Shown here: positions 2,253 to 31,256 of the stretch, piece by piece
Position numbering within the stretch: position 1 is the stretch's first letter
Layout: each line of letters starts with the position of its first letter
Source of the DNA: Deltaproteobacteria bacterium
GTDB taxonomy: Bacteria > Myxococcota_A > Polyangia > Polyangiales > Ga0077539
Length of the DNA: 64,000 nt
Direction of reading: 5' to 3'
Assembly (NCBI GenBank): GCA_947477565.1
Contig: CANJUR010000017.1
Span: 1-64,000, forward strand
Notes under the pieces: generated by a model
What the model was told of the DNA's origin: nothing
Database searches by the model: none
The model's input: only the letters and a program-made list of their open reading frames with translations
Made by a program: the position numbers and the translations under genes

Positions 2253-2437
2253 CCCCACAGCGCCCAATCCACCCACCGCACTGTGAGCGTCTCGGGCTGT
2301 GCGCTGTGCGATCGGCACACAGGCTCACCGTCCAACGCACTTCGATTCCCTCGCATACACCGCGGCACGTTGATTGCTCAACGCTGCATCCCGTCCCGCG
2401 ACGCCGTCGGGTACGCCGCCCAAATGCCGGAGATTCG

Positions 2438-5400
2438 ATGAAGACTGCCAACGCTACGCTCGCCCTGCTCCTCCACGCCGCGCTCTTCGCAGGGTGTGCC
2501 GAAGAGATCCACGGGCCGCCGCTCTCCCTCGACCCGGGGGTCGCCCCGGCGACCGTCTGCAACGCCTCGGACGCGGAGAACCAGGGACTCCAGACCCGCG
2601 TGGTGCTGCGCGCCGCCATCGGCGGATCGTTCGCTCCGCTGCCGATCGACACGCTGACACCGGATGCCTCCCTCGCGCTGCCGCGGGTAAGCCTGCGCTC
2701 CGCGGAGGGCCGCGACCTGACCGTGCGCCAGGTGGAGTTCGTCTCGACCCGCGAGATGGCGCTGTGGGTGACCCGCACCACCGGCGACGGCAGCGCGCTG
2801 GTACCCGGCGCGTACACCCTCTCCGTCGTCAACCCCGATGGTACCGCCGCGCTCACGATGGTCGGCGCGCTGCGCGTGGTGCCGCCGCCGACGGTGACCA
2901 GCGTGGCGCGCATCGACCCAGCGGCGGCCGCGCCGGGCGTCGATCCAGACGAGGCCCAGACCGTCTGCAACGCCTACGACACCACCATCGCGATCGCCGG
3001 GACCAACTTCCGTCCCGCTGATCCGACGCCCGTGGTCGAGGTCGTCGATGCGCGGGGCGCCACCGTCCAGAGGGTGCGAGACGCCGACGTGCGGGTGGTG
3101 TCCGCGACGGAAATCCGCGTGACGCTGCGCGCTGCAATGGACCCGTCGCGACGGCTTGCGCCGGGGCGCTACGGGTTCCGTGTGACCAACCCCGATGGCA
3201 TTGCGTCCAGCGGCCGAACCGCGGGCGACGCCGGCACCGCCGACGCGGGCGTCGACCTCACCGGGACGCAGTACCCGCAGGGCTGCCACAGCACCGCCGC
3301 GTCGCTGTTCACGGCCGTGCCGCCACCGGAGCTGAGCGCGGTCGAGCCCGTCTCCGCGTGTAGCTCGCGGGAGCAACGGTTCATCGTGCGCGGAGCACAT
3401 TTCCGCCACGGACTCACGGTCACCGTCGGCTCCGCGACGCCGTTCGTGGTCCCGGCGACGGGCATCGCGTACGCGAGCTCTACAGGGAGCCCCAACGACT
3501 TCGACAGCCTCACGCTCACCGTCCCCGCGGCCTCCGTGGCCGTCGGTGGAGCCTACGCGCTCGCGGTGCGCAACGCCGACGGGTGCGCGGTGACCTTCGA
3601 GCCCCAGTGCCCCGCGGGCACCATGCCCACCGGCACCCTCAATGAGTGCCTGGGAACCGTCGGGATGTCGTCGGGTATCGGTCCGCGGTCGATCACCTTC
3701 TACGCCGACCCGGTGGTCACCTCGATCATACCGCGGGGAGAGTGCACCGCCGCGCTGATGCCCGTGACCATCACCGGGATGAACTTCCACAGCACCTACG
3801 GCGTGCAGCCGATCGTGCGAATCAACAACGTGGCGCTCGAGAACGTGCGTGTCACTTCGCTCACCACCCTCACCGCGGAGGTACCGATGTCCCTCATGGC
3901 GGGCGCGCCGCTCGGTACCCCCTACGACGTTTCCGTGACGGTCCCGGAGGGCTGCGCGGGCACGCTCGCCCGCGGGTTCACGCTGTTTCCACCGCCGACC
4001 GTGACGGCCGTGCGACCGGGTTCCGTGTGCGGCGACCGCCCGGGGCTGACCCTCACCATCACCGGGACGAACTTCCATGCGTTCGAGTCGGCGGTGCCGA
4101 CGGTGGTGCTCGGCTCGACGCCTCCGACGTCGCTCACCAACGTACGTGTGGTGTCGGAGACGACGCTCTCGGGTGACCTGCCGACGACCACCGCCCCGGG
4201 TGGTCCGTACGACGTCGTCGTGACGAGCCCGGTGCAGTGCGGCGCGACGCTCTCGCGTGCGTTCACGTACTACGCGACCCCGACGATCACTTCCGTGATG
4301 TCGCAGGCGTCCTGTACGGGTGGAAATGCAGTGTTGGTGATCATCGGCACCGGGTTCCACGCGACCGGGACAACCCTGCCGACGGTGACGCTCGAGACGG
4401 CCACCCCGACGACGCTCTCGGCGGTGCGCGTCACCTCGGAGAACACGATTCTCGCGGAGCTTCCGAGGACCCTCCCCGCGGGTAGCTACTCCGTCCGCGT
4501 GGTGATGCCCGAGGGCTGCGCCGCGTCGTCGCTGACGACCTTCGCCTACGACCCCAGCACCCTCGTGCCGCCGACCCTCGCGGGCATCATCCCTACCCGC
4601 GGATGGAACGGCATCGACATGCCCATCACTATCGTCGGCACGGGGCTCGCGACGCTCACCGGCCTGTCGCTGCGCGGCGCAGCAGCGGGTGGCGGCGACC
4701 TCGCGCTCACGGACCTCTCGGTCATCGGCTCCGACCTGCTCAACGCCACCGTGCCCGCGGGCGGCCGGGCGGGTGGGCCGTACGACCTCGGCTCGACGGT
4801 GGCCGGGTGCCCGATCACGCTCCCCGCGGCGTACACGATCACGGCGACGCCCGCGATCACCATCACCGGCGTGACGCCGCCCTTCGGCTGGACCGGCGGC
4901 TCGACACCGATCGCGCTTCAGGGCACGGGCTTCGCCTCGACGCCGCGGGTGTACATCATCATCCCGGGGCTCACGCCCCGCATGCGGGTTTTACAAAGGC
5001 CTGTATTCATCAACGGCAACACTGTTTCGGCGGTCGTGCCCGCGGGTCTTCCACCGGGCACCTATGACCTCGCGGCGATCAACCCCGACGGCGGGGGCGG
5101 GGTCATCCGCGGGGCGTTCCGCGTGACGGTGATGCCGCCGCCGACGATCAACACCGTGACCCCCGGCGCGGGCACCACGCAGTCGCCCACCGTCGCCATC
5201 ATCACCGGCACCAACTTCCGCGCCCCGGTGGTGACCCTGCGCTCGGCCGCGGGCATGTCGTTCATGGGCACCGTAACCGCCTCGACGGCCACGAGCATCA
5301 CCGTGAGCTTCCCGACCACCATGATGAACCCGGGCGCTTACCTCGTGCGCGTCACCGACCCCGACGAGAGCACCTACGCCGACTTCGGATCGTTCGTGGT

Positions 5401-6787
5401 GACCAACCCCTCGGGGAACCTCTCGATGTTCACTACGGCGTCGGCGCTCACCATCGGCCGCCGCGGCGAGGCCGTCGTCGCTAGCCAGGTCAACGTCGTT
5501 ACTCGCTTCCTCTACGCGATTGGCGGTGACGGTGGCTCCACGGGCCCGACGCACGCCACGGTGGAGTTCGCGAGCGTCGATCTCTTCGGCCGCCTTGGCA
5601 CATGGCGCGTGCAGCGCTACCGGCTCCCCTCCCCGGTCACCGGGATTGCGAACTCAGCCATCGAGCACAACGGCTTTGTCTACGTCCTCGGCGGCGCCAA
5701 CTCGGCCGGAACCCCTCAGCCCACCGTGCTCCGCGCGAAGGTGCTCGACTTCAGCACCGCGCCGGTGATCGCCGACCCGGAGATCACCCGCCGCTCCGGC
5801 GCGCTAGCTCCCGGCGCGTGGATCTACCGCGTCGCCGCCGTCATGCCCTCGTCCGACGCGTCCAACCCTGGCGGCGAGACGCTCCCCAGCGATGAGGTCA
5901 CCGCCTACTTCGTCTTCGGCAGCACCGTGCGGCTGCGCTGGGGCGCCGTCGCGAGCGCCGCCAACTACCGGGTCTATCGCTCGCCGACGGTCAACGGCGC
6001 CTCCGGGAGCGAGGTGCTGCTCGCCACCGTCGCAGCGACGGAGACGACCTTCCTCGATGACGGCACCGCGACCCCGGCCGCGGCGGACATCGACCATCAG
6101 GCCCTCATCGTCGGGAGCACCGGCGTCTGGGCCGCGCTCGCCACACCGATGGGAACCGCGCGAGCGACCGTCGCGGCGGCGCTCGCTCCCGACCGCACCG
6201 GGGCGCTCTTCGTGTACGCCCTCACGGGCCGCGGTACCTCTGGTCCGCTCGCGACTTACGAGTACGCCTCGCTGAGCGCCGATGGAGCGCGGCTCGGTGC
6301 CTTCACCGCGGGCTCGTCGTCCTTCCCCACGGCGCGCGAGTACGCCGCATCGGCGGTGGCGTCGTCGCAGACGGCACCCGTGGTCGCGGGCGATCCCTTC
6401 GTCTACCTCACTGGCGGCTTCAGCGCGTCCGCGTCGCTGAACGTCACGGAGTCTGCGCGGGTCTCTCCGGGCGGCGCGCTCACGACCCCCATGAACGCTC
6501 GCTCGTATTCGAATCGTCGCGGCGCGCTGGGAGCCATCGTGATCAACAACGTCTTCTACGCAATGGCCGGCACCAGCGGACCGAACCCCGCATCGCTGGC
6601 GGTCGACTCCAACAGTTCATCCAGACTGACCACGACTGGCGAGCCCGGTAACTTCAACGCCACGGCCATGATGATGACCCCGCGGCAGAACTTCGGCCTC
6701 GCTCTCGCCAGCGCCTACTTCTTCGTCGTCGGGGGAACGAGCACCGGGACCAACGCGCTCTCCTCGGTCGAGCAGACCATCTACTGA
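2438..6787 (+). CDS. large IPT/TIG-repeat and kelch-like surface lipoprotein
   Basis: A predicted 1449-residue lipoprotein. It starts with a lipoprotein signal (MKTANATLALLLHAALFAGC, lipobox LFAG-C), so it should be lipid-anchored and probably surface exposed. The body is a series of about ten IPT/TIG immunoglobulin-like domains, each with the pattern PPxVTxVxP...ITGTNFH...VTVxxPxG...TF. The C-terminal 450 residues contain kelch-type blades (FLYAIGGDGG, FVYVLGGANS, FVYLTGGFSA, YFFVVGGTST) and a fibronectin-like insert (ANYRVYRSP), suggesting a beta-propeller. The reading frame stays open upstream to 2306, but the ATG at 2438 gives the signal peptide. The beta-barrel gene follows 10 bases later and is probably co-transcribed. 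A role in adhesion or binding of surface glycans is inferred from the architecture only. Confidence 0.85.
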   Translation: MKTANATLALLLHAALFAGCAEEIHGPPLSLDPGVAPATVCNASDAENQGLQTRVVLRAAIGGSFAPLPIDTLTPDASLALPRVSLRSAEGRDLTVRQVEFVSTREMALWVTRTTGDGSALVPGAYTLSVVNPDGTAALTMVGALRVVPPPTVTSVARIDPAAAAPGVDPDEAQTVCNAYDTTIAIAGTNFRPADPTPVVEVVDARGATVQRVRDADVRVVSATEIRVTLRAAMDPSRRLAPGRYGFRVTNPDGIASSGRTAGDAGTADAGVDLTGTQYPQGCHSTAASLFTAVPPPELSAVEPVSACSSREQRFIVRGAHFRHGLTVTVGSATPFVVPATGIAYASSTGSPNDFDSLTLTVPAASVAVGGAYALAVRNADGCAVTFEPQCPAGTMPTGTLNECLGTVGMSSGIGPRSITFYADPVVTSIIPRGECTAALMPVTITGMNFHSTYGVQPIVRINNVALENVRVTSLTTLTAEVPMSLMAGAPLGTPYDVSVTVPEGCAGTLARGFTLFPPPTVTAVRPGSVCGDRPGLTLTITGTNFHAFESAVPTVVLGSTPPTSLTNVRVVSETTLSGDLPTTTAPGGPYDVVVTSPVQCGATLSRAFTYYATPTITSVMSQASCTGGNAVLVIIGTGFHATGTTLPTVTLETATPTTLSAVRVTSENTILAELPRTLPAGSYSVRVVMPEGCAASSLTTFAYDPSTLVPPTLAGIIPTRGWNGIDMPITIVGTGLATLTGLSLRGAAAGGGDLALTDLSVIGSDLLNATVPAGGRAGGPYDLGSTVAGCPITLPAAYTITATPAITITGVTPPFGWTGGSTPIALQGTGFASTPRVYIIIPGLTPRMRVLQRPVFINGNTVSAVVPAGLPPGTYDLAAINPDGGGGVIRGAFRVTVMPPPTINTVTPGAGTTQSPTVAIITGTNFRAPVVTLRSAAGMSFMGTVTASTATSITVSFPTTMMNPGAYLVRVTDPDESTYADFGSFVVTNPSGNLSMFTTASALTIGRRGEAVVASQVNVVTRFLYAIGGDGGSTGPTHATVEFASVDLFGRLGTWRVQRYRLPSPVTGIANSAIEHNGFVYVLGGANSAGTPQPTVLRAKVLDFSTAPVIADPEITRRSGALAPGAWIYRVAAVMPSSDASNPGGETLPSDEVTAYFVFGSTVRLRWGAVASAANYRVYRSPTVNGASGSEVLLATVAATETTFLDDGTATPAAADIDHQALIVGSTGVWAALATPMGTARATVAAALAPDRTGALFVYALTGRGTSGPLATYEYASLSADGARLGAFTAGSSSFPTAREYAASAVASSQTAPVVAGDPFVYLTGGFSASASLNVTESARVSPGGALTTPMNARSYSNRRGALGAIVINNVFYAMAGTSGPNPASLAVDSNSSSRLTTTGEPGNFNATAMMMTPRQNFGLALASAYFFVVGGTSTGTNALSSVEQTIY

Positions 6788-6797
6788 AAGGACCACC

Positions 6798-7679
6798 GTG
6801 AGGATCACTCCCCTGCTCGCCGCGCTGTTGTTTCCCGTCGCATCGGGCGCTCAGCACCACCATCGCCGCCATCACGCCACGCCGGAGGCGACGCCCGCGC
6901 CCGCCCCGACACCCGCTCCTGCGCCCTCCGCGACGCCCGCGGCGCAGGCCCCCGCGACGGACGCTCCGCCCGTTGCGGAGACCCCGCCGCCGCCTCCAAT
7001 CGCAGAGCGCCCGCCCCCTGCCCCAGCGGTGGTCGTGGCGGATCCCGTTGCTTCGGCCGACATCGCGCCTACGCGCTCCACGGAGCGTTCGTTCGCGTTG
7101 GAGTTCGGCCCCGTGCTCGGCCTCGATCTCTCGACCAACGCGCTGAGCCTCGGTCCCAACCTGGGGCTTGAGGTCGGCGGGCGACTCGCGTTGGGCCCCG
7201 GCGTCCTCGCCTTCGCCGCGCGCGGAACCTGGCAGCACTACACCCTCAACCAATCGGCCGCTGCTCCCTGCGCTCCCATCGGCAGCGGCAGCACCAACGC
7301 GAGCCCCGCGCCGGAAGCACCCTGCGTCTCGACCCCGACCGGAGGCGCGTACGACTACGCGATCGGCGAGGACACCGTACGCATATCCCTACTGCTCTCG
7401 TACCGGTTTCTCCCCGCCGCGAGTGCGTTCAACGCGTACGTCGGCGTCGCTCCGCAGGTCGTGCTCCAGCGCGCCGAGACCACCGCCTGGAACCTCCTCA
7501 CCTCCGAGACCGCCACCCGCTTCGGCGTCGGCGGCCTCGCGGGCGCGCAGTACCGCCTCGGCCCGGGCGCTGTCTGGCTCGAGGCGGGCTACGCGTGGGT
7601 TCCGGTCGTGCACCGGGTGACCGGCGACGCGTCCATCAGCACCGTCACCCTCGCCCTCGGCTACCGCATCGCGCTGTAG
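6798..7679 (+). CDS. outer-membrane beta-barrel-type protein with a His/Pro/Ala-rich N-terminus
   Basis: 293 residues. The N-terminus is a signal peptide (MRITPLLAALLFPVASGAQ) followed by a His-rich stretch (HHHRRHH) and a long Pro/Ala linker to about residue 85. The rest alternates short amphipathic strands ending in aromatic residues (FALEFGPVLGLDL, LLLSYRFLP, NAYVGVAPQVVL, AVWLEAGYAWVPV, VTLALGYRIAL), with a final strand typical of outer-membrane barrels. The start is a GTG at 6798, with the purine-rich AAAGGA about 10 bases upstream. It follows the IPT/TIG lipoprotein by 10 bases, suggesting an operon and a functional pair. The His-rich segment could bind metal ions, but that is speculation. 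Confidence 0.75.
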   Translation: MRITPLLAALLFPVASGAQHHHRRHHATPEATPAPAPTPAPAPSATPAAQAPATDAPPVAETPPPPPIAERPPPAPAVVVADPVASADIAPTRSTERSFALEFGPVLGLDLSTNALSLGPNLGLEVGGRLALGPGVLAFAARGTWQHYTLNQSAAAPCAPIGSGSTNASPAPEAPCVSTPTGGAYDYAIGEDTVRISLLLSYRFLPAASAFNAYVGVAPQVVLQRAETTAWNLLTSETATRFGVGGLAGAQYRLGPGAVWLEAGYAWVPVVHRVTGDASISTVTLALGYRIAL

Positions 7680-7759: not shown

Positions 7760-7837
7760 ATGCCAACCCTCACTCGAAACCGCTGGTTGACCACTCTGGT
7801 GCGGTAGCACTTCCTTCTGGTCGCCGTCGCCGCGGGA
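7760..7837 (+). pseudogene. disrupted lipoprotein signal peptide of the cysteine-repeat protein
   Basis: Reading from the ATG at 7760 in the frame of the downstream gene gives a basic n-region (MPTLTRNRWLTTLVR), one TAG at 7805-7807, then a hydrophobic h-region and the lipobox GVSAC. The stop separates the two halves of an otherwise textbook type II signal peptide. A single substitution (for instance TAG from CAG or TGG) would restore it. No ATG, GTG or TTG start lies between the stop and the GTG at 7838, where translation would begin only four codons before the lipobox Cys. Confidence 0.6.
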
Positions 7838-10800
7838 GTGTCGGCGTGCGGTGGCGACCTGCAGCCCGCGAGCGAACTGTCCGATCCCACGACCTGCCCC
7901 TCGACCACCGCGGACCTGCAGCGGACGCTCTTCGCGCCGCGCTGCGGTAGCTCCGGCTGCCACGACGCCGCGCACCCGACCTACGGCCTCGACCTCGTCT
8001 CGCCGGGTCTCGAAGCCCGGGTCATCGGCGCGACCTCCATCGGCTGTACCGGCGAGCGCATGGTCATTCCGGGGGATCCCGAGCGCTCACAACTCTACGT
8101 AAAGATCGCCCAGGCGTCGCCCGAATGCGGGCGACGGATGCCCCAGGGCGCTCCAGCCCTCAGCGCCTCACAACTGGCCTGCGTCGCAGCCTGGATCCGC
8201 GGTCTCGGCGCACGCACCGTGACCGACGCGGCGGTCGATGCCTCCTTCGACGCCAGCACGGACACCGCTCTGGATGCACGCATCGACGTGCCCACGGACG
8301 CCGCGACCTGCGCGCCGGGACAGACCCGATGCGGTGGTCGTTGCCTCGACACCGCGCTCGACCCATCGAACTGCGGCGCCTGCGGACGCGCCTGCGTCGC
8401 GGGGCAGAGCTGCACGGCGGGCGCGTGCGTCTGCGGTCCGGGGCAGATGCTCTGCGCGGGGACCTGCGTCGACGTCCGCAGCAGCCTTCTGCACTGCGGC
8501 GCCTGCGAGCGCACCTGCGTCGCGGGTCAGAGCTGCGCGGCGGGGATGTGCGAGTGCCCCACCGGGCAGACCCTCTGCGGCAGCGCGTGCATAGACCTGC
8601 GCACCGCTGCGAACCACTGCGGCGCGTGCGGGCAGGCCTGCGGCGCCGGGCAGACGTGCAGCGCGGGCGCGTGCACCTGCGGCAGCGGCCTCACGCTGTG
8701 CGCAGGGGTCTGCATTGATGCGCGGAACAGCGCGACGAACTGCGGCGTTTGTGGGCGCACCTGCGCCGCGGGACAGGCGTGCGTCGCGGGCATGTGCGCC
8801 TGCGCGGGCTCGCTCACCCTCTGCGGTGGGGCGTGCCTCGACACGACCGCGAGCGCGACGAACTGCGGCGCGTGCGGGCGGACGTGCGCCGCGGGGCAGG
8901 TCTGCGTGGCGGGGGTCTGCGCGTGCGGCACCGGACTCACCCTCTGCAACGGTGCGTGCGTCGATGCTCGGACGAGCGTGACGAGTTGCGGGGCCTGCGG
9001 GCGAATCTGCGCCGCGGGACAGACCTGCAGCACGGGAGCGTGCGTGTGCGCGGGGCCGCAGTCGGTCTGCAGTGGCGCTTGCGTCAACACCGACACGAAC
9101 ACCTACAACTGCGGTTTCTGCGGGCGCGCCTGCGGGGCCGGGCAGACGTGCGCCGGCGGGGTCTGCACCTGCGGCGGCGGGCTTACCTTCTGCAGTGGCG
9201 CGTGCGTCGATCTGCCCACCAACGGGACGAACTGCGGCAGGTGCGGCAATGCATGCGCGTCGGGGCAGACGTGCGTGGCAGGCGGGTGCGTCTGCGGCGC
9301 AGGGCTCTCGCTCTGCGGTGGGACGTGCACCAACCGCCAGACCAGCTCGACGAATTGCGGTACGTGCGGCAACGCATGCGGGACAGGCTTCGTATGCAAC
9401 CTCGGGGTGTGCACGCGAGGCGCATGCACGGGCGGCACGATCGCGTGTGGGGGCGCCTGCGCAAACCTGCAGATCGATCCGTCGAACTGCGGCACCTGCG
9501 GGCGCGCCTGCGCCGCGGGGCTGTCGTGCGTGGCCGGGGCGTGCGCCTGCGCGGCGGGCCAGACGCTCTGCGGGAGCGTGTGCGTCAACGGCCAGACCGA
9601 CCCCGCCAACTGCGGTGCGTGCGGCCGCGCGTGCTCCGCCGGCCAGGCGTGCGCGGCGGGCGTGTGCACCTCGTCGTGTGCAAGCGGCGCCACCCTCTGC
9701 AGCGGCAGTTGCGTGAACCTCCTGACCGACGCCGCCAACTGCGGCACCTGCGCACGCGCGTGCGCCGCGGGGCTTTCCTGCGCGGCGGGCGCGTGCGTCT
9801 GCGCGGCGGGCCAGACGCTCTGCGGCAGTGTGTGCGTCAACGCGCAGACCGACGCCGCCAACTGCGGCGCCTGCGGGCGCGCGTGCTCCGCAGGACAGGC
9901 GTGCACGGCGGGCGTGTGCACCTCGTCGTGTGCGAGCGGCGCCACCCTCTGCAGCGGCAGCTGCGTGAACCTTCAGACCGACGCCGCCAACTGCGGCGCC
10001 TGCGGGCGCGCGTGCTCCGCAGGACAGGCGTGCACGGCGGGCGCGTGTGCCTGCGCGGCGGGCCAGACGCTCTGCGGCAGCGCCTGCACCAACCCGCAGA
10101 CCGACCCATCAAACTGCGGCGCCTGCGGACGCGCCTGCACCACCGGCCAGGCGTGCACCGCGGGGGTCTGCACCAGCACCTGCGCGAGCGGAACCACCCT
10201 CTGCAGCGGCAGCTGCGTGAGCACCTCGACGGACACCGCCAACTGCGGCACCTGCGGCCACGCGTGCACCTCGACGCAGATCTGCGCCGCGGGCGTGTGC
10301 GCCTGCTCGTCGGGGCAGACGCTCTGCGGCGGCACCTGCGTGAGCACGTCGACGGACAACGCCAACTGCGGCACCTGCGGCCACGCCTGCACCACCGGCC
10401 AGGCGTGCACCGCGGGGGTCTGCACCAGCACCTGCGCGAGCGGAACCACCCTCTGCAGCGGCAACTGCACGAACCTCCTGACCGACGCCACCAACTGCGG
10501 CGTCTGCGGACGCGCGTGCGGCTCGGGGCTGAGTTGCACCGCGGGGGTGTGCGCGGGATGCGGCGCGACGGTGAGCCTGTCAACGCAGGTGCAGCCGATC
10601 TTTACGGCCAGTTGCACGACCGGCTGCCACGGCGGAGCGCGCCCGGCGGCGGGCATGTCGCTGCTCTCGGGGGCGGCGTACTCAAACCTCGTCGGCGTGG
10701 CGGCGTCGGGCTGCACGGGCGGCCAGATCAGGGTCGTCCGCGGCTCGGTCTCGACCAGCTATCTGGTCAACAAGCTGACGGGGGTTGGCATGTGCTCGGG

Positions 10801-10891
10801 CAGCGCTATGCCCTTCACAGGCGGCCCGCTACCCACAGCGCAACTCGACCTCATCCGCACTTGGATCTGCAACGGCGCGCCGAACAACTGA
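7838..10891 (+). CDS. cysteine-repeat lipoprotein with c-heme-like terminal domains (start disrupted by an in-frame stop)
   Basis: The open frame from the GTG at 7838 codes for 1017 residues. The N-terminal domain has a CGSSGCH motif (CX4CH) and a C-terminal domain has CTTGCH (CX3CH), both embedded in sequence like the cytochrome-c-type domains of surface lipoproteins (LFAPRCG, VQPIFTASC). Between them lie an Asp-rich spacer and about 18 copies of a roughly 45-residue repeat with the core CGACGRACxxGQxC...CxGxC. Such repeats are often mislabelled as tryptophan synthase alpha chain in myxobacteria; no such fold is present here. The true start is probably the ATG at 7760: in frame it reads MPTLTRNRWLTTLVR, then TAG at 7805-7807, then HFLLVAVAAGVSAC, a perfect lipobox. 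The gene is therefore either broken or carries a sequence error. Confidence 0.8.
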   Translation: MSACGGDLQPASELSDPTTCPSTTADLQRTLFAPRCGSSGCHDAAHPTYGLDLVSPGLEARVIGATSIGCTGERMVIPGDPERSQLYVKIAQASPECGRRMPQGAPALSASQLACVAAWIRGLGARTVTDAAVDASFDASTDTALDARIDVPTDAATCAPGQTRCGGRCLDTALDPSNCGACGRACVAGQSCTAGACVCGPGQMLCAGTCVDVRSSLLHCGACERTCVAGQSCAAGMCECPTGQTLCGSACIDLRTAANHCGACGQACGAGQTCSAGACTCGSGLTLCAGVCIDARNSATNCGVCGRTCAAGQACVAGMCACAGSLTLCGGACLDTTASATNCGACGRTCAAGQVCVAGVCACGTGLTLCNGACVDARTSVTSCGACGRICAAGQTCSTGACVCAGPQSVCSGACVNTDTNTYNCGFCGRACGAGQTCAGGVCTCGGGLTFCSGACVDLPTNGTNCGRCGNACASGQTCVAGGCVCGAGLSLCGGTCTNRQTSSTNCGTCGNACGTGFVCNLGVCTRGACTGGTIACGGACANLQIDPSNCGTCGRACAAGLSCVAGACACAAGQTLCGSVCVNGQTDPANCGACGRACSAGQACAAGVCTSSCASGATLCSGSCVNLLTDAANCGTCARACAAGLSCAAGACVCAAGQTLCGSVCVNAQTDAANCGACGRACSAGQACTAGVCTSSCASGATLCSGSCVNLQTDAANCGACGRACSAGQACTAGACACAAGQTLCGSACTNPQTDPSNCGACGRACTTGQACTAGVCTSTCASGTTLCSGSCVSTSTDTANCGTCGHACTSTQICAAGVCACSSGQTLCGGTCVSTSTDNANCGTCGHACTTGQACTAGVCTSTCASGTTLCSGNCTNLLTDATNCGVCGRACGSGLSCTAGVCAGCGATVSLSTQVQPIFTASCTTGCHGGARPAAGMSLLSGAAYSNLVGVAASGCTGGQIRVVRGSVSTSYLVNKLTGVGMCSGSAMPFTGGPLPTAQLDLIRTWICNGAPNN

Positions 10892-10919: not shown

Positions 10920-11987
10920 TCAGCGCGCGGCCCGGGGAGCCCGCCGTCTACGTCCAAGCCCCAATAACGCCAGCATCACCGCTGGAATTCCCCACCGTCC
11001 GTCTCCACCGGACTGCTCGCCGACCCGACATCCGCAACCGGTTTCCGTCGCCGTCTGGGGAGCCGTGGCCCCGGCGTCCGCTCCAGCCCCGCCGCCGTCT
11101 TCAGTGACGAACACTCCGCCGTCGGCGCCGCTCCAGCGACCACATTGGTTGTAAACGCAGGTGGTGCCGACGGGGCAGACGATCGAGGCGCAGCGGTCGA
11201 CCATGCAGGCGCCGTTCGAGCGCTCGTCGCAGAACTCGCCCGCCGCGCAGATCACGCCCGCGCAGAGCGGCACGCAGTACGGGTCGCCGCCGACCAGGCG
11301 ACAGGTCGTCCCGCGCGTCGCGCACGTGAAGCCAAGCTCGGGATTGTACGCGCAGCGCTCGCGGTAGCAGACGCCACCGATGCACACGCCGCCCACACAC
11401 ACGCAGCCGTCATCCCCTGCGGCGGTGGCGTCCGATGGAGACGCTGTGGCGTCCATGTGGGGCGATGCATCCAGCGCAGGGACTGCGCCGTCAAAAGTGG
11501 CGATCGGCGCGTCACTTGCGGACGTCGTTGCATCGGCCCCGCGAACGTCCATCGGGAGAGCGTCGCGTCCCGGAACATCCACGGTAGTGCCAACATCAAC
11601 GGATCTCCCGACATCCTGCGCGGCGGGCACGTCCATGGACGCGAGAACGTCCGTCGGGAGCGAAACATCCGGGCGGCCCGCGTCGGACACGCCGGCGTCC
11701 ACCGGGGCGACGCGCACGCAGGTGCATTCTCCACTACACGAGACCCAACTCGCATTGGGGCAGGTGGTGGGGCGGGTTCCGCAGAAGGGCGCGAAGCCCG
11801 ACTCGCACCCGGCGGAGCCAGCTTGCACGCACTGGCCTGGAAACTGATGGCATCCCCTGTTGCACGAGCACCGCCCCTGGGCACTCGCGACCGCGGAAAG
11901 CGACGCCGTGAGGCCAAACGCCGAGAGCGCCACGAGGGCGAGGCTCATGCGGAAACGCGGGCGCGGACGAGCGAGGAGGAGGGTCAT
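10920..11987 (-). CDS. secreted Cys- and Asp-rich protein with MYXO-CTERM anchor
   Basis: 355 residues. It has an N-terminal signal peptide (from MSLALVALSAFGLTAS, cleavage near VASAQG), a first Cys-rich module of about 70 residues (CNRGCHQFPGQC), an Asp/Val-rich spacer of about 110 residues and a second EGF-like Cys-rich module (GGVCIGGVCYRERC; CDERSNGACMVDRC). The C-terminus reads ETGCGCRVGEQ, a hydrophobic stretch GIPAVMLALLGLG, then RRRRAPRAAR. This is the MYXO-CTERM sorting signal pattern, so the protein should be processed and surface-anchored. The ATG at 11987 overlaps the stop of the upstream gene as ATGA (11984-11987), which fixes the start and suggests translational coupling with that lipoprotein. 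Confidence 0.8.
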   Translation of the reverse strand: MTLLLARPRPRFRMSLALVALSAFGLTASLSAVASAQGRCSCNRGCHQFPGQCVQAGSAGCESGFAPFCGTRPTTCPNASWVSCSGECTCVRVAPVDAGVSDAGRPDVSLPTDVLASMDVPAAQDVGRSVDVGTTVDVPGRDALPMDVRGADATTSASDAPIATFDGAVPALDASPHMDATASPSDATAAGDDGCVCVGGVCIGGVCYRERCAYNPELGFTCATRGTTCRLVGGDPYCVPLCAGVICAAGEFCDERSNGACMVDRCASIVCPVGTTCVYNQCGRWSGADGGVFVTEDGGGAGADAGATAPQTATETGCGCRVGEQSGGDGRWGIPAVMLALLGLGRRRRAPRAAR

Positions 11988-12742
11988 GGGTTGGGGCACC
12001 GTCGGGTGGTGAACGTGAGCGTGAAGGTCTGCGCGGCGGTGGTGCTCCGACCGCACGCGTCGATGGCGGTGAACTCCACCCGCCAGGTGCCGCGGATGCC
12101 GAAGACCGAGAGCGCGGGAATCCCGGCGGAAGCGCCTCCCACGAGCCGATGGAAGACGTACGGCGCGGCGGACAGCATCGCCGGCGGAGGTGCCTCGACG
12201 CCGCCCGGAGTGATCCAGCGAGCGCTCACGCGGAGCACGGGCGACGAGGCGGTGACCGCGGCGGCGAAATCGTAGAAGATCGGCAGCCCCGCGGCGGTGC
12301 AGGTCTCGATGACTTCATCACGGGTCGGCGCCGTGACGGAGAAGACCGGCGCCGTCCCGAGGCACGACCCATCGACCCCGGGGAGATCGACCCCGGGGAC
12401 ATCCCGAGGGACATCGACGGCGGGTACGTCCGAGAGCGAAACATCGGCTGCGTGCCGATCGAACGCCATCCCATCGACCGCACCCGCATCGCTGCTCGGG
12501 ACGTCGGTGAGCCCCGTATCGAGGGGCGTCGCGCCGCTGTCGACAGTGACCGCGTCGAGCCCAGCAGGGCCATCCGCGGTGGGGACGCTCGCGTCCGCAA
12601 GACGATCCGTAACGGCCGATGCATCGGTCGCGTCTTCGTAGCGATCACCTACCGTCTGCGCGTCGGTGGCGCTCGGATCGTCAGCGCAACCGACGCCAAG
12701 GAAACAACACAGCACCGCGGCGCATCGTCGTATCGACATCAA
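11984..12742 (-). CDS. lipoprotein with Asp-rich spacer and Ig-like domain
   Basis: 252 residues. The signal peptide ends in lipobox LGVGC (residues 15-19), followed by a spacer rich in Asp, Ala and Val (about residues 20-135). The last 120 residues look like a single Ig-like/PKD-like beta domain with four Cys (SCLGTAPVFSVTAPT, ISARWITPGG-type strand, GTWRVEFTAIDACGRS). No enzymatic motif is visible. It is the first gene of a two-gene unit with the MYXO-CTERM protein. Tandem ATG codons at 12742 and 12739 are equally possible starts. The family is unknown to me. Confidence 0.7.
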   Translation of the reverse strand: MMSIRRCAAVLCCFLGVGCADDPSATDAQTVGDRYEDATDASAVTDRLADASVPTADGPAGLDAVTVDSGATPLDTGLTDVPSSDAGAVDGMAFDRHAADVSLSDVPAVDVPRDVPGVDLPGVDGSCLGTAPVFSVTAPTRDEVIETCTAAGLPIFYDFAAAVTASSPVLRVSARWITPGGVEAPPPAMLSAAPYVFHRLVGGASAGIPALSVFGIRGTWRVEFTAIDACGRSTTAAQTFTLTFTTRRCPNP

Positions 12743-12910: not shown

Positions 12911-15007
12911 TCAGCGCAGCGAGCGCGAGTGGAGTCGAGCGCCGAGCGCTTCTCGCGCGGCGGTGAGTGCGCGCGGATCGTTTGAAAACGTGTACGTGTT
13001 GGTCACGAACGAGCGGACCTGCGCATCGGCAAACGCCCCGTCGCCCGCCGCGGTAAGGGCGTGCAGGTACTCGTAGTCTTCCATCCCCGCCCGCAGCAGT
13101 TGCAGCCGGAGGGTCGGCAGCGGAATCGGGGTGGTACCCCCGATGCGGGACGGTAGACCGGGGTAGAGGAGGGTTCCGTCCCCCTGGCCGCCGAAGGCGT
13201 AGACGCTGCTCCAGGGGTTCGTCGTGCCCGCGCCGCATGGGTTGGTCCAGCAGTAGTCCATGGCGTAATAGAGTTCGCCGGATACGCGGTAGAGGTGCGC
13301 GAGCCACTGAAACGCCCGGTTGCGCACGGGGCTCGCGTCGAGCACGTACGTCGGCCAGGTGCTCTGGATGGGACCGGACGTACCGTTGGCGCAGCTCTCA
13401 TGCTGGCCGCAGTCCTGGTACCACCACAGCCTCCGCCCCGGCTGCGCGAGAAAGCCGTCGTATGCGGCGCGCTGACTGGGCGCGTCCTGCGAATGCATCC
13501 GCTCGACGGACACCGTGACGATGTCCACGTCGGCGAGCATGCCGTTGGCAGTGAGGTCTGCGATGTCGGTCGTCAGCAGCGTGCGTAGGGGCGGCGTGAG
13601 CGCATGCACCGCGCGCTCTTCCAGGGCAGCCGCCGCGAACGAGCACCCCGCCGGCGGCTCGTCGCAGTGGTAGTAGAGCAGCCGATCGCTCCACCCGCGA
13701 TCGCGTGCATGGGCGCTCCATCGTTGGGCGAGCCCGTAGTCGTGTGGGCGGCCGACGTACGCGAGGGAGGTCATCCGCGCGCCGCGGAGTCGGGTGGTCG
13801 CGGTGCCGTCGAGCAGCGGGCTGTGGAGCGCGTCGAAGGCGGCCCAGTCGGTCAGGTCGGTGCCCGCGTACGGGGTCTCGGCGTTGGTGAGGCGGTAGTC
13901 GAGGAGGAAGCGCGCGGTGAGCAGGTGCGTCAGTTCGACGCCGTGATCGGGGTTGGCCCCTGCCCCGGGAAATCGGCCGCAGGTGTCGTACCCGCCAGTG
14001 GCTGCGGCGCACATTCCCATCTCGCTGACGGCGAAGAAGTTCGGGAGCGAAGAAGTCGCGGGGAGATCGAAATTCCAGACCTTCACGCGCACCGGCATGG
14101 TCGCGAGGGCGACGCCGCTGACGTTCACCGCGACTGTTCCCGTGTACCAACCCGACGGCGTGCCGGGAGGGATCATCAGTTCGATCCAGAAGCTTCGCGT
14201 TTCGCGCGCGGGCACGGTGGCGGGGAAGGCGTTACGCGCCTCGTGCATCCACGGATCGACCGCGGGAATCAGGGCATCGGGGATGTTTCCGACGGCGCAG
14301 TTGAGATCGGACGGTGTGACCACGGATTGATAGGCCTCGCGAAACACCACCGCATGATCCGCCGCCCGGATGACCGTGCCGGAACGCGCGTCCGTGAGGT
14401 CCGTGACTGCGACGGAGAGCCCGGTGATGACGCGATCCGCCGCGCGCACATGCACCTGGAAGTCCTCGAACTCATTGCGCGCACTGGAGAGCAGCGCCCA
14501 ATGCTCCGCGCCCGGCGTGTCGGTGGTCTTCACCTTCGCGAGCGCATCGGTGATCCAAACCGTGGACGGGTAGTGCGTCGGGTCCAGATCGATCGGCGGC
14601 GCGAGCGACGGAGCCAGCGGATCAAGCACCGCCAGAGAGGCATCCACGGGGGCATCGCGAGTGACGTCCAAAGGGGTATCGCGAGGGGCCAGAAGGGTGT
14701 CCAAAGGGACATCGCGAGGGGCGTCCAAAAAGGCGTCCAGGGAGGCGTCCAAAGGGACATCGCGAGGGGCGTCCAAAGAGGCGTCCAGGGAGGTGTCCAA
14801 AGGGACATCGCGAGGGGCGTCCAGAGAGGCGTCACGAGGGGCGTCCATAGGGGCATCGCGAGACCCGTCGATGTGGACATCCGCCAGCGGGAGAGCACCG
14901 AGATCCGTCGATGCATCCGAACGCACGGGTTCTGCCGTGGATGTCCCGCAGCAGACACCGATCAACCAGTACGAGACGATCCACCAGGGGAGACGCGGGG
15001 GCTTCAA
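12911..15007 (-). CDS. DUF4091-family glycoside-hydrolase-like lipoprotein
   Basis: About 698 residues. The last third carries the DUF4091 signature (DGTLLYPGLPS, then LRLQLLRAGMEDYEYLHAL). Upstream is a TIM-barrel-like region with LLYYHCDEPP (a potential acidic catalytic site), IVTVSVERM and LWWYQDCGQH, preceded by a beta-sandwich (SFWIELMIPPGTPSGWYTG). DUF4091 proteins resemble glycoside hydrolases, but substrates are mostly unknown. The TTG at 15007 is chosen as start because it yields a short lipoprotein signal ending in LIGVC; the frame stays open to a GTG at 15145. Right after the lipobox is a repetitive Asp-rich spacer (APRDVPLDTSLDAS) encoded by about 48-bp DNA repeats. A role in polysaccharide trimming is inferred from the neighbouring synthesis genes. 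Confidence 0.75.
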   Translation of the reverse strand: MKPPRLPWWIVSYWLIGVCCGTSTAEPVRSDASTDLGALPLADVHIDGSRDAPMDAPRDASLDAPRDVPLDTSLDASLDAPRDVPLDASLDAFLDAPRDVPLDTLLAPRDTPLDVTRDAPVDASLAVLDPLAPSLAPPIDLDPTHYPSTVWITDALAKVKTTDTPGAEHWALLSSARNEFEDFQVHVRAADRVITGLSVAVTDLTDARSGTVIRAADHAVVFREAYQSVVTPSDLNCAVGNIPDALIPAVDPWMHEARNAFPATVPARETRSFWIELMIPPGTPSGWYTGTVAVNVSGVALATMPVRVKVWNFDLPATSSLPNFFAVSEMGMCAAATGGYDTCGRFPGAGANPDHGVELTHLLTARFLLDYRLTNAETPYAGTDLTDWAAFDALHSPLLDGTATTRLRGARMTSLAYVGRPHDYGLAQRWSAHARDRGWSDRLLYYHCDEPPAGCSFAAAALEERAVHALTPPLRTLLTTDIADLTANGMLADVDIVTVSVERMHSQDAPSQRAAYDGFLAQPGRRLWWYQDCGQHESCANGTSGPIQSTWPTYVLDASPVRNRAFQWLAHLYRVSGELYYAMDYCWTNPCGAGTTNPWSSVYAFGGQGDGTLLYPGLPSRIGGTTPIPLPTLRLQLLRAGMEDYEYLHALTAAGDGAFADAQVRSFVTNTYTFSNDPRALTAAREALGARLHSRSLR
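14640..14875. repeat. degenerate 48-bp tandem repeats coding the Asp-rich spacer
   Basis: On the plus strand the phrases GACATCGCGAGGGGCGTCCA and GGCGTCCAGGGAGG recur at about 48-bp spacing, with shortened copies. On the minus strand they encode APRDVPLD and SLDASLDA blocks in the spacer of the DUF4091 lipoprotein. The pattern suggests growth by slippage or unequal recombination. Confidence 0.7.
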
Positions 15008-27070: not shown

Positions 27071-29739
27071 CGCGCCGTGAAGGTCGCCCGCCGACCCGGC
27101 GGCAGCGCGTCTCGCAGCACCACGCGCCGTCCCGAGACGGTGTAGGCGCCGCAGGTGTCACAGGCGAAAGCGGTCACTGCGTCGCCGAATTCGAGCGTGA
27201 GCCCGGTGACCGGGACGGCCCCGACGACGAGGGTGCCGCGGTATCCGCGAGCGGAGTCGTAGTCGGCATCGACGTTGGTGCCTTCGCGGCCGCGCCAGAA
27301 GTCCGCCACGGCCTCGATGCCGAGATCCGTGCGGATGCCCGCCCCTTCCGCCATCGTGAGCAGTCGGTCGGCCGCGGTAAACTTCACCCCGATGTTCGAC
27401 TGCGGCACGTCGATGCCCGCGGAGGGGTGCACCAGGGCGGTCGAGTGCGCGCCGTTGGTCGCGTTGCGCAGTGCCGCGTACGTCCAGGCGTTGAAGAAGT
27501 GCGGGAAGTTCGTCGGCGAGATTTCTTCTCGTCCCACCACGCCGGCCACCACGTACCCGAGGCCGTCTTCGATGGCGATGAGGTGCTCGAGGATGGGGCG
27601 ATGGTGAAAGATCTCCTGGGAGATGCCCGTGCGCGACAGGGACATCGGCAGGTTGGTCTTGAAATCGCCGATCGCGTAGCTCGAATCGGAGATGACGCCC
27701 TGCGCCGCGAGGACATCGAACATCGACGGATTGACCTGCAGATACGGCGCACGCCAGAGCCGCGGTGCCTGGCCGACTACTCCGGTGAGGAGTTCGAGCG
27801 CGACGCGAATCTCGCCGCAGAGGGTGGTCTGCGCCGACATCACGGGGTTGTAGGTAGCGCGGGTCTCCAGGCAGCTTGCCATCAAAGGGAGTGACGCCTC
27901 GGAGCGGTGCGTGACGGAGTGCGCCGCGGCGGGGCACATCCCGAGCGCGCAGAGGTAGCGCACGGTCTCCGGCGACCAGTACCCTTCGATGTAGTTCGTG
28001 GTGACGTAGTAGGTTCCGCGGGCGTGGTGGGCGGCCTCGACGGAGGCCATCTGCAGGGCCCCGGAAGCGCCCCACTCGCCCGGCAGCGCCGAGTCCACCG
28101 CGTCAACGTCGTGGGTCAGTTCGAGCAGCGAGTCTTCCAGGCCCGGCACGGTGTGCTTCAACACGACGTGTCCCGCAGTGCCTTCGCGCAGCGCGTCGCG
28201 GAGAAACAGACCCAGTACGTCGCCGGACGGCTCGAAGCAGTTGATGTAGCAGCGGTAGTGGCGAAACCCGTGGAGGTCGTGGCCGACACCGTAGATGGCC
28301 CCGCGGCCGAGCGCCCGACGCGTGACCGACGCGCCGACGTCCATCGCGGCGGCGTAGGCGTGCGCGAGCACCGTCACGCCAGCGCCCGCGGCGGGGCTGA
28401 GCGTGTACACCTCCATCGGCTGTGCAACCGTGTTTTCGGTGATCTCCAGCCAGCGCTCCTCGGGGCTGTCGAGCGAGGAGGTGACCGGAGCCGATCCGGT
28501 GAAGCGCATGGTGGTCACATCGAAGTGCCGCGTGGTCGTCGTCAGCCCGAGCAGCAAGCCGAGGTCGGGCCCGTGCGTCGCGCTGATGACCGGCTTCTGC
28601 ACCACCACGACGCCGCCGTTGCGCGCGAAGGCTTCCAACGCGGCGCGCGCAGCGGCATCGAATTCATACGCGCCCATGTATCCAGGGATGACCACCAGCG
28701 AGTACCCCGTCGCGATGCGGGGGAGTTGCGACTCGAAGGTGGCCCCGGTGGTCGGCCGGTCGTACGCGATGCCCCACTGGTCGAGAATCGAAGCGACGGT
28801 ATCGACCTCAAGCGGCCCATCGAGCCAGAGATCGTTGGGAACCAGAAGCAGTGCCCGAGAGCGCACCGCAGCGGTGGTGGTCGGGGTGTCGTCGATGCGC
28901 CCGTTGCAGTCGTTGTCGCGCCCGTCGTTGACCTCTGGCGTCGCGGCCGGGGCCTGACAGATCCGGGTGGTTCCGTCGCAGGCGGCCCAGCCGGTGGCAC
29001 AGACCCCGAGCGCGCCCGTCGAGCACGCGTTGGGCCCCACCGGCAGCAGTTGATCGACCCAGCCGTCACAGTCGTTGTCGAGCCCGTCGCAGCGCGTCTC
29101 CACCACCTCGCGCCGCGGATCACCGAGCGGAATCAAGCAGCCCGGCACCGCGCTCGCGACATCGGCAAAGTGCACCGGGACCCGAAACGAGTCCCCCGGC
29201 ACGTCCGCCGCTGAAACGTCCACCCGTGGCACATCGACTACCCCCGCATCGGGGCGTCCAACGTCCATCGACACCACATCGAACACGCCCGAATCGGGGC
29301 GTCCAACGTCCATCGACACCACATCGAACACGCCCGAATCGGGGCGTCCGACATCCACCGCGGGAACATCTACCGCGGGGACATCCACCGCGGGGACATC
29401 CACCGCGGGGACATCCACCGCGGGGACATCCACCGCCGGGACATCCACCGCCGGGACATCCACCGCCGGGACATCCACCGCGGGGACATCCGTGACTGAC
29501 GCATCGGCCGGGCTCGTCCCGGTGTCTACGGCCACGTCGCCTGCGACGTCGATCGGCGTCACGGGCGCATCGACCGGACCGGCCTCGGGTGCGTTCACGT
29601 CTGCCGCGGCATCCGTGCCAGGCGCGGCATCGCTGCCGATCGGGCCCGGGGGATCCGAGGAGCAGGCGCTCAGCACGAGCACCGCCGAGAGAGACGCTAC
29701 GAGGCGAACGAGGTGCGAACGGCGACCAGAAGAATTCAT
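27067..29739 (-). CDS. lipoprotein with MopE-like motifs and NodB-like polysaccharide deacetylase domain
   Basis: 890 residues from the ATG at 29739 (a start at 29772 is also open). The lipobox is VLSAC. A spacer of about 160 residues holds nine to ten DVPAV repeats and two GRPDSGVFDVVSM repeats. Two MopE-like metal-binding motifs follow (DGLDNDCDGWVD and DGRDNDCNGRIDD), then a Rossmann-like domain (LLLVPNDLWLDG, VVIPGYMGAYEF). The C-terminal half has deacetylase-type motifs: LTHDVDAVD (about 543), HSVTHRSEAS (about 606) and RAPYLQ (about 662), matching the D-D, HxxxH and RxPY blocks of carbohydrate esterase family 4. First gene of the operon; deacetylation of the nascent polysaccharide, as PgaB does, is inferred. 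A 16-bp palindrome lies upstream. Confidence 0.75.
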   Translation of the reverse strand: MNSSGRRSHLVRLVASLSAVLVLSACSSDPPGPIGSDAAPGTDAAADVNAPEAGPVDAPVTPIDVAGDVAVDTGTSPADASVTDVPAVDVPAVDVPAVDVPAVDVPAVDVPAVDVPAVDVPAVDVPAVDVGRPDSGVFDVVSMDVGRPDSGVFDVVSMDVGRPDAGVVDVPRVDVSAADVPGDSFRVPVHFADVASAVPGCLIPLGDPRREVVETRCDGLDNDCDGWVDQLLPVGPNACSTGALGVCATGWAACDGTTRICQAPAATPEVNDGRDNDCNGRIDDTPTTTAAVRSRALLLVPNDLWLDGPLEVDTVASILDQWGIAYDRPTTGATFESQLPRIATGYSLVVIPGYMGAYEFDAAARAALEAFARNGGVVVVQKPVISATHGPDLGLLLGLTTTTRHFDVTTMRFTGSAPVTSSLDSPEERWLEITENTVAQPMEVYTLSPAAGAGVTVLAHAYAAAMDVGASVTRRALGRGAIYGVGHDLHGFRHYRCYINCFEPSGDVLGLFLRDALREGTAGHVVLKHTVPGLEDSLLELTHDVDAVDSALPGEWGASGALQMASVEAAHHARGTYYVTTNYIEGYWSPETVRYLCALGMCPAAAHSVTHRSEASLPLMASCLETRATYNPVMSAQTTLCGEIRVALELLTGVVGQAPRLWRAPYLQVNPSMFDVLAAQGVISDSSYAIGDFKTNLPMSLSRTGISQEIFHHRPILEHLIAIEDGLGYVVAGVVGREEISPTNFPHFFNAWTYAALRNATNGAHSTALVHPSAGIDVPQSNIGVKFTAADRLLTMAEGAGIRTDLGIEAVADFWRGREGTNVDADYDSARGYRGTLVVGAVPVTGLTLEFGDAVTAFACDTCGAYTVSGRRVVLRDALPPGRRATFTAR
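29350..29495. repeat. 15-bp tandem repeat array coding (VDVPA)n
   Basis: Ten ACATC phrases follow each other at exactly 15-bp spacing between 29351 and 29490 (unit GACATCCACCGCGGG with single-base variants). On the minus strand each unit codes VDVPA in the spacer of the deacetylase lipoprotein. Next to it, 29250-29339 is a 45-bp unit repeated twice (GRPDSGVFDVVSM block). Such arrays are prone to length variation. Confidence 0.9.
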
Positions 29740-29903: not shown

Positions 29904-31256
29904 TCAGGGCATGCACACCCCAGATCGGCAGCGGTTGCCGCCGGTGCAGCGCACTCCGCAGGCGCCGCAGTTGGACATGTCGCTCGACGGGTCCACGCAG
30001 CGACAACTGCAGCGCAGTAACCCGCCGCCGCAGGAGTTGCTCAAGCATGAGCCGCTGCAGCAGGTCTGGTCGACTGTGCAGGCACGGCCGCAGACGCCGC
30101 AGTTTTCTTGGTCGCTACCGAGCGAGGTCTCGCAGCCGTTGGCAAACTGCCGATCGCAGTCTCCATAGTCAGACTGGCAGGTCGATCGGCACACCCCCGA
30201 CATGCAAGACGAGGCCGCGTTGGGGCGCTCGGCACAATCATTGGAGCAGGCCCCGCAGTGGGTCGCACTGCTCGCCGTCGTCGTGCAGTTGCCCAGGCAA
30301 ACCACTGCCGGTGCAGAGCAGGCCACTGGCGTACACAACCCCGTCTCGCAGGCCTCGGTGTTCGCGCACGGGTTGCCGCACGCCCCGCAATGGTTTCGAC
30401 TGGTCTGCAGGTCGTAGCAGCCACCGTCGCAGGCCGTCAGCGACGCCGGGCACGCGGCCACGCAACTGCCCGCCGAGCACACCTGCCCGGTGACGCAGGC
30501 GACGCCGCATCCACCGCAGTTGGCGGCATCGGAATTCACGCTGCGGCATGTGGAGCCGCACAGTCTCTGCCCAGTCGGACACTGCTGGACGCAGCCGCCG
30601 GCCACGCAGTGTGACGCGGCGGGGCATTGTCGGTTGCAGGCTCCGCACTGGGCATCAGTGGTCAGAAGGTCAACGCAGAGGTTGTCGCAAGCCGAGCGCC
30701 CCGCCGTGCACGGTTGGCACATCCCGCTTTCACAGCGCTGGGTGGATGTACAGGTGTTGCCGCACGCGCCGCAGTGATCGGGACGATTGCTGATGTCGAT
30801 GCAGACACCACCGCAGGCCCGCAGCCCGGACCCACACTGCACATCGACGCCGATGTCTGCGGCGCCCGTGTCCAGCGGCGGGACATCGATCACCACGGAG
30901 ATGTCGAGCGTGCTGGCATCGCGAGGAGTCGCCGGCACGTCGAGCACAACGTCCACCGGCACGTCAAAGGGGATCACCGGCACGTCGAGGACAACGTCCA
31001 GCGGCACGTCAAAGGGGATCACCGGCACGTCGAGCACAACGTCCACTGGCGGTGCAGGAACATCCGCAGAATCCACCGGAACATCCGACCGAGGCGTCGG
31101 GACATCCGGGCCGCTGTCGGTTAGCGGGATGACGCGTCCGGCATCGCCTGCATCCGCAGCCGTCGGCGATGCCGCATCGGGCCACGGAAGCGCGCAGCCG
31201 ACCCCGACCATCGCCGCAAACACCACACCGAGCCGGAGCTTGTCAGAACACGCCAT
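29904..31256 (-). CDS. lipoprotein with Asp-rich spacer and CGxC cysteine repeats
   Basis: 450 residues. Lipobox VGVGC (around residue 21) is followed by a spacer with a 15-residue repeat (DVVLDVPVIPFDVPV). The rest is about seven Cys-rich units of the same class as those at 8-10.5 kb (NRPDHCGACGNTC, TDAQCGACNRQC, SDAANCGGCGVAC, SRNHCGACGNPC, SATHCGACSNDC, DQENCGVCGRAC, DMSNCGACGVRC). No heme-like end domains are present in this copy. It overlaps the PEGA gene upstream by 14 bases (31243-31256), suggesting co-transcription. Likely a surface or periplasmic structural or binding protein; no function can be assigned. Confidence 0.8.
   Translation of the reverse strand: MACSDKLRLGVVFAAMVGVGCALPWPDAASPTAADAGDAGRVIPLTDSGPDVPTPRSDVPVDSADVPAPPVDVVLDVPVIPFDVPLDVVLDVPVIPFDVPVDVVLDVPATPRDASTLDISVVIDVPPLDTGAADIGVDVQCGSGLRACGGVCIDISNRPDHCGACGNTCTSTQRCESGMCQPCTAGRSACDNLCVDLLTTDAQCGACNRQCPAASHCVAGGCVQQCPTGQRLCGSTCRSVNSDAANCGGCGVACVTGQVCSAGSCVAACPASLTACDGGCYDLQTSRNHCGACGNPCANTEACETGLCTPVACSAPAVVCLGNCTTTASSATHCGACSNDCAERPNAASSCMSGVCRSTCQSDYGDCDRQFANGCETSLGSDQENCGVCGRACTVDQTCCSGSCLSNSCGGGLLRCSCRCVDPSSDMSNCGACGVRCTGGNRCRSGVCMP

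Follow-up and report, generated by a model that had tools for sequence, protein, structure and literature searches.

A predicted myxobacterial envelope lipoprotein with a c-type cytochrome head at each end of a cysteine-repeat stalk

The window analyzed here, a stretch of 64,000 nucleotides from contig CANJUR010000017.1 of a Polyangiales genome, carries a long cysteine-rich open reading frame that lies downstream of two genes for putative envelope proteins. The locus contains the following features.

2306 to 6787, + strand: TIG (IPT) and Kelch-like protein (PF01833, 5e-23), linked neighbor, adjacent in G001 and G002
6798 to 7679, + strand: outer-membrane beta-barrel-like protein (PF13505, 1.1e-5, just under the cut-off), linked neighbor in G001 and G002
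7760 to 7849, + strand: remnant lipoprotein signal peptide, read in frame from ATG 7760 and ending in the lipobox VSAC, whose Cys is encoded at 7847-7849
7838 to 10891, + strand: open reading frame under study, 1017 codons
7895 to 8215, + strand: predicted N-terminal cytochrome c head, from homology, invariant residues and an AF2 model; CX4CH spans 7943-7963, and the predicted distal Met is codon 8138-8140
8216 to 8308, + strand: Asp/Ala-rich linker, from sequence
8309 to 10558, + strand: STIG1-type repeat stalk, a partial unit followed by 18 repeats starting at 8369 (PF04885, 3.6e-93; NF041328, 1.5e-220)
9353 to 9484, + strand: repeat 9, of the GFVC type and 44 residues long, a landmark shared with the relatives L167, L168, L169, and L170
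9485 to 10492, + strand: expanded repeats 10-17, lineage-specific, four copies of a 252-bp two-repeat unit, from repeat comparison
10574 to 10888, + strand: predicted C-terminal cytochrome c head, from homology and invariant residues; CX3CH spans 10613-10630, and the predicted distal Met is codon 10808-10810

In the MAGs JAUSAZ01 and SCUS01 (G001 and G002), which belong to the genus of the window, the TIG-Kelch and beta-barrel-like genes are on the same strand as the ortholog of the window gene, in permuted order. The TIG-Kelch protein is lipoprotein-like, and weak matches to this pair lie side by side in G018, from another family. The convergent neighbor (10920-12056, - strand) encodes a Cys-containing protein with, by eye, a MYXO-CTERM-like C-terminus (GCGCR, a hydrophobic stretch and RRRR). 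Short tandem repeats with periods of 12-48 bp are found at 14699-14862, 29350-29491, and 30932-31050; at least the first of these encodes Asp/Pro-rich linkers of exported proteins, resembling the Asp/Ala linker of the window gene.

The product of the open reading frame contains 157 Cys and 7 His residues, and CGSSGCH (CX4CH, residue 36) and CTTGCH (CX3CH, residue 926) are its only CX1-7CH motifs. Translation probably does not begin at GTG 7838, and a putative lipoprotein signal can be read from ATG 7760. This signal reads MPTLTRNRWLTTLVR, an in-frame TAG at 7805-7807, and then HFLLVAVAAGVSAC. Thus, as assembled, the lipobox VSAC is present but the signal preceding it is broken and export would be blocked, whereas the orthologs L054 and L055, from the genomes of L168 and L167, respectively, have an unbroken lipoprotein signal ending in LSGC. 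The window copy might be a decayed gene in which the nonsense codon halts export, the more so as, past the TAG, GTG 7838 is the sole ordinary start codon ahead of the lipobox. We regard decay as quite improbable, considering that the remaining 1017 codons are open, that 8 Cys are kept in every full repeat, that all five residues invariant in the head family (see below) are kept in both heads, and that an error in one base is no less likely in an assembly of 252 contigs. With the rest of the open reading frame intact, the TAG suggests either a very recent mutation or an error of assembly.

The middle of the protein consists of 18 [N/H/S]CGxC repeats of 41, 43, or 44 residues. Exactly 8 Cys are present in 17 of them; repeat 18, with 6, runs into the C-terminal domain. 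The stalk is a clear member of the Stig1 and MXAN_6577-like cysteine-rich proteins, scoring above the curated cut-offs of both Stig1 (PF04885; 306.6 bits versus 24.1) and C_rich_MXAN6577 (NF041328; 722.2 bits versus 100), and differs from them in that cytochrome heads are not part of these family definitions. In an AF2 model of the repeats plus C-terminal head, the repeats form beta-hairpins with a pLDDT of about 90. An earlier sequence-only reading had described about 18 repeats between a CX4CH and a CX3CH domain, forming a disulfide-rich rod, and the repeat count, the position of both motifs, and the family matches bear out this layout and a disulfide-rich repeat region in the middle. It had also called the repeats at 9.5-10.5 kb almost identical, which was an overstatement: adjacent copies of the 252-bp unit share 77-91% DNA identity and the closest single repeats 92%, compared with about 56-73% among repeats 1-8. 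The recent expansion deduced from that near-identity survives as a lineage-specific expansion of repeats 10-17, whose nearest relatives are mostly within the window protein. Since repeats 9 and 18 have their nearest relatives in orthologs, the expansion appears to have taken place between two conserved landmarks. Repeat number, which the same reading proposed to compare between strains, does differ in our comparison of species-level genomes: 18 in the window protein, 17 in L170, 16 in L167 and L168, 9 in L169, and 8 in L174 and L178. On contig CAISKJ010001366.1, a STIG1-CX3CH frame (L165/L066) follows apparent antisense repeats, which suggests that part of the repeat region has been inverted or misassembled.

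Both ends of the protein appear to be c-type cytochrome domains, class I-like and with predicted His/Met ligation. A profile search of the PDB with the heads returned FoxE (7.1e-11), hydrazine synthase alpha (5e-6), and cytochromes c6 (8e-6), and all matches to E 1 were, by name, c-type cytochromes or cytochrome-bearing subunits. The two heads are homologous to each other (29% identity, 2.4e-7). A recent internal duplication of the heads found no support, as the N- and C-terminal heads occupy separate regions of the domain tree, although many of its forks are weak. The N-terminal head scored 17.6 bits against PSCyt1 (PF07635), under the 22-bit cut-off, and several family members match PSCyt1 and Cytochrome_CBB3 (PF13442) weakly; a PSCyt1 search of the genome gave zero matches, with the control also unmatched. 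The motif alone is weak evidence in so cysteine-rich a protein, because at least one CX2-4CH arose in 35% of shuffles of the whole protein, compared with 1.3% and 0.6% when the N- and C-terminal domains were shuffled alone. A chance motif would fit this figure but is ruled out by conservation across the family.

Structure prediction of the terminal domains, a check proposed in the earlier reading, was applied to both heads. The AF2 model of the N-terminal head, built without heme, reached a pLDDT of 87 and a pTM of 0.82. Foldseek, however, found nothing significant for it in the PDB (best E 2.8, TM 0.37), and seven of its nine matches, none significant, were cytochromes or a cytochrome-containing complex. 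The C-terminal head was poorly modeled in the shallow alignment of repeats plus C-terminal head, and the corresponding fold search, again without significant matches, brought up chiefly generic disulfide-rich proteins; its first-ranked entry was hydrazine synthase (E 0.17). Thus, the fold assignment of the heads rests on sequence rather than structure.

The head family has eight matches in the genome of the window and was found in all 57 genomes searched in the order. Among 107 distinct domains, CX4CH occurs in 81, CX2CH in 14, CX3CH in 8, CX5CH in 3, and CX7CH in 1. The only fully invariant columns in these domains are C, C, H, M, and P, a count in which selection bias is possible because these residues were already part of the search profile. 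Relaxing the threshold to E 0.05 gained a single domain lacking CX2-9CH (L187), which reads CXCH. The two Cys and the His, present in both window heads with loops other than the canonical 2 residues, and the downstream Met-Pro, of which the Met (residues 101 and 991 in the window protein) is the predicted distal ligand, would represent heme attachment and axial ligation. The heme reading of both heads, proposed from the motifs at both ends, is therefore likely to be correct as judged from homology and these residues. That the motifs are unusual, as was also claimed, did not hold up. With named genomes added, 96 of 133 domains (72%) carry CX4CH, followed by CX2CH (20), CX3CH (13), CX5CH (3), and CX7CH (1), so that CX4CH is the commonest form, and such loops appear to be a habit of a large, under-recognized cytochrome family instead of a peculiarity of the window protein. 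Parsimony requires 18 loop-length changes on the domain tree, but the shortness of the domain means that branches with strong support impose a much smaller number. Rare loops in the family comprise CX7CH, CXCH, and several CX5CH (L047, L187, L042, L040, L107, L110, and L139). CX5CH motifs in the Cys-rich repeats of L181 were considered as heme sites and left out of the counts, given their apparently EGF-type context.

Heme attachment to such loops has precedents. In MmcA of Methanosarcina acetivorans, heme on CXXXCH and CXXXXCH was proven by mass spectrometry (PMC11024163), and in cytochrome c3, CXXXXCH is present twice (PMC10454114). The likeness to MmcA is confined to the loops, as MmcA is a compact heptaheme archaeal cytochrome, unrelated in fold and architecture. 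The genome of the window contains CcmE and CcmF, on different contigs, and no match to ResB was detected in it, which points to System I for cytochrome c maturation. FoxE (PDB 5mab and 5mvo), a c-type cytochrome labeled putative iron oxidase, matches over the whole head domain, with its CXXCH aligned to the CXnCH of the window family. It differs in its CX2CH loop, in the absence of a STIG1 stalk, and in having its heme domains adjacent in one compact protein.

The two-headed layout is a more distinctive feature than the motifs. L167 and L168, which come from the MAGs JAUSAZ01 and SCUS01 and have unbroken lipoprotein signals, show the same order as the window protein, a CX4CH head, repeats, and a CX3CH head. 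L169 lacks the N-terminal head, and in other proteins the repeats are followed by a C-terminal head with no counterpart at the N-terminus. Closely related C-terminal heads at this position differ in their loops, which may be CX2CH, CX3CH, or CX4CH, and L170 has a CX2CH head. Heads at both ends of another repeat spacer, with CX3CH and CX4CH motifs in reversed order, were found in Myxococcus xanthus AM003, two Corallococcus, and Archangium lansinium (L185, L182, L183, and L179). In the two of these that were scanned (M. xanthus and Corallococcus AS-1-6), the spacer is CoaZ_rpt_PGGG/TIG-like and not STIG1.

Taken together, we consider it likely that the window gene encodes an exported myxobacterial envelope lipoprotein with two monoheme c-type cytochrome heads on a disulfide-bonded STIG1-type stalk. 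Each head would bind one heme covalently through two Cys, with 4 intervening residues in the N-terminal motif and 3 in the C-terminal one where 2 are usual; axial ligation would be by the motif-adjacent His and the downstream Met. In this arrangement, the N-terminal head would be next to the lipid anchor, the C-terminal head would form the tip, and the stalk would give reach and stability. From these features we infer heme attachment, anchoring, surface exposure, and electron exchange with a partner outside or in the envelope, as well as a role in reach at or beyond the outer membrane. Alternatively, the protein might be an adhesin or matrix stalk in which cytochrome-like heads serve docking or assembly, with heme minor or absent. 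Secreted proteins of myxobacteria commonly contain STIG1 repeats, often without cytochrome heads, the N-terminal head is missing from L169, and the neighboring genes encode TIG-Kelch and beta-barrel proteins. A purely structural head, however, would have no need for the strict conservation of both Cys, the His, the Met, and the Pro across 107 domains, and we consider such a role unlikely.

If the protein is a two-headed cytochrome, electrons would be exchanged at each head separately and not along the stalk. Electron tunneling is limited to roughly 14 angstrom, and tunneling between heads about 750 residues apart is not expected. Nor does the protein have the series of hemes at tunneling distance that defines a multiheme conduit for extracellular electron transfer, with only two CxnCH motifs, 890 residues apart in sequence. 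With single hemes some 18 repeats apart and no electron passage along the rod, redox activity, if there is any, would take place at the tips. Extracellular electron transfer, the function suggested in the sequence-only reading, is plausible. It is conceivable that the protein projects from the outer membrane and that its distal heme, fed by envelope cytochromes, reduces or oxidizes minerals, partner cells, or other cytochromes; the lipoprotein signal of the orthologs, the linked beta-barrel-like gene, and the labeling of FoxE, the closest solved relative, as a putative iron oxidase are consistent with this. We nevertheless hold this specific scenario to be doubtful, since two hemes with about 750 residues between them offer no conductive path, a multiheme partner or porin-cytochrome conduit was not seen among the adjoining genes, and presence of the family in all genomes searched in the order argues for a general role.

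The family is widespread in myxobacteria, and standard motif searches largely miss it. It is tempting to speculate that two-headed myxobacterial envelope cytochromes, with interchangeable repeat stalks and free heme-loop length (1 to 7, CX4CH commonest), constitute an unrecognized class mostly missed by CXXCH counting, a proposal that we advance tentatively and rate at somewhat less than an even chance. Among the papers searched, none connected CX4CH to Myxococcota, nor STIG1 repeats to cytochromes, an absence that is no proof. Heme-protein surveys usually count CXXCH; for instance, CxxCH was the basis of selection in a survey of the wastewater secretome from 2024 (PMC11495043). Given the predominance of CX4CH in this family, such counts undercall myxobacterial cytochromes. 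The family also provides a natural series for the loop-length tolerance of cytochrome c maturation. The window protein, in which two Cys pairs would be kept for heme while about 140 other Cys are expected in disulfides, may serve as a test of redox sorting in the envelope, and the homologs in Myxococcus xanthus put the family within reach of a genetic model.
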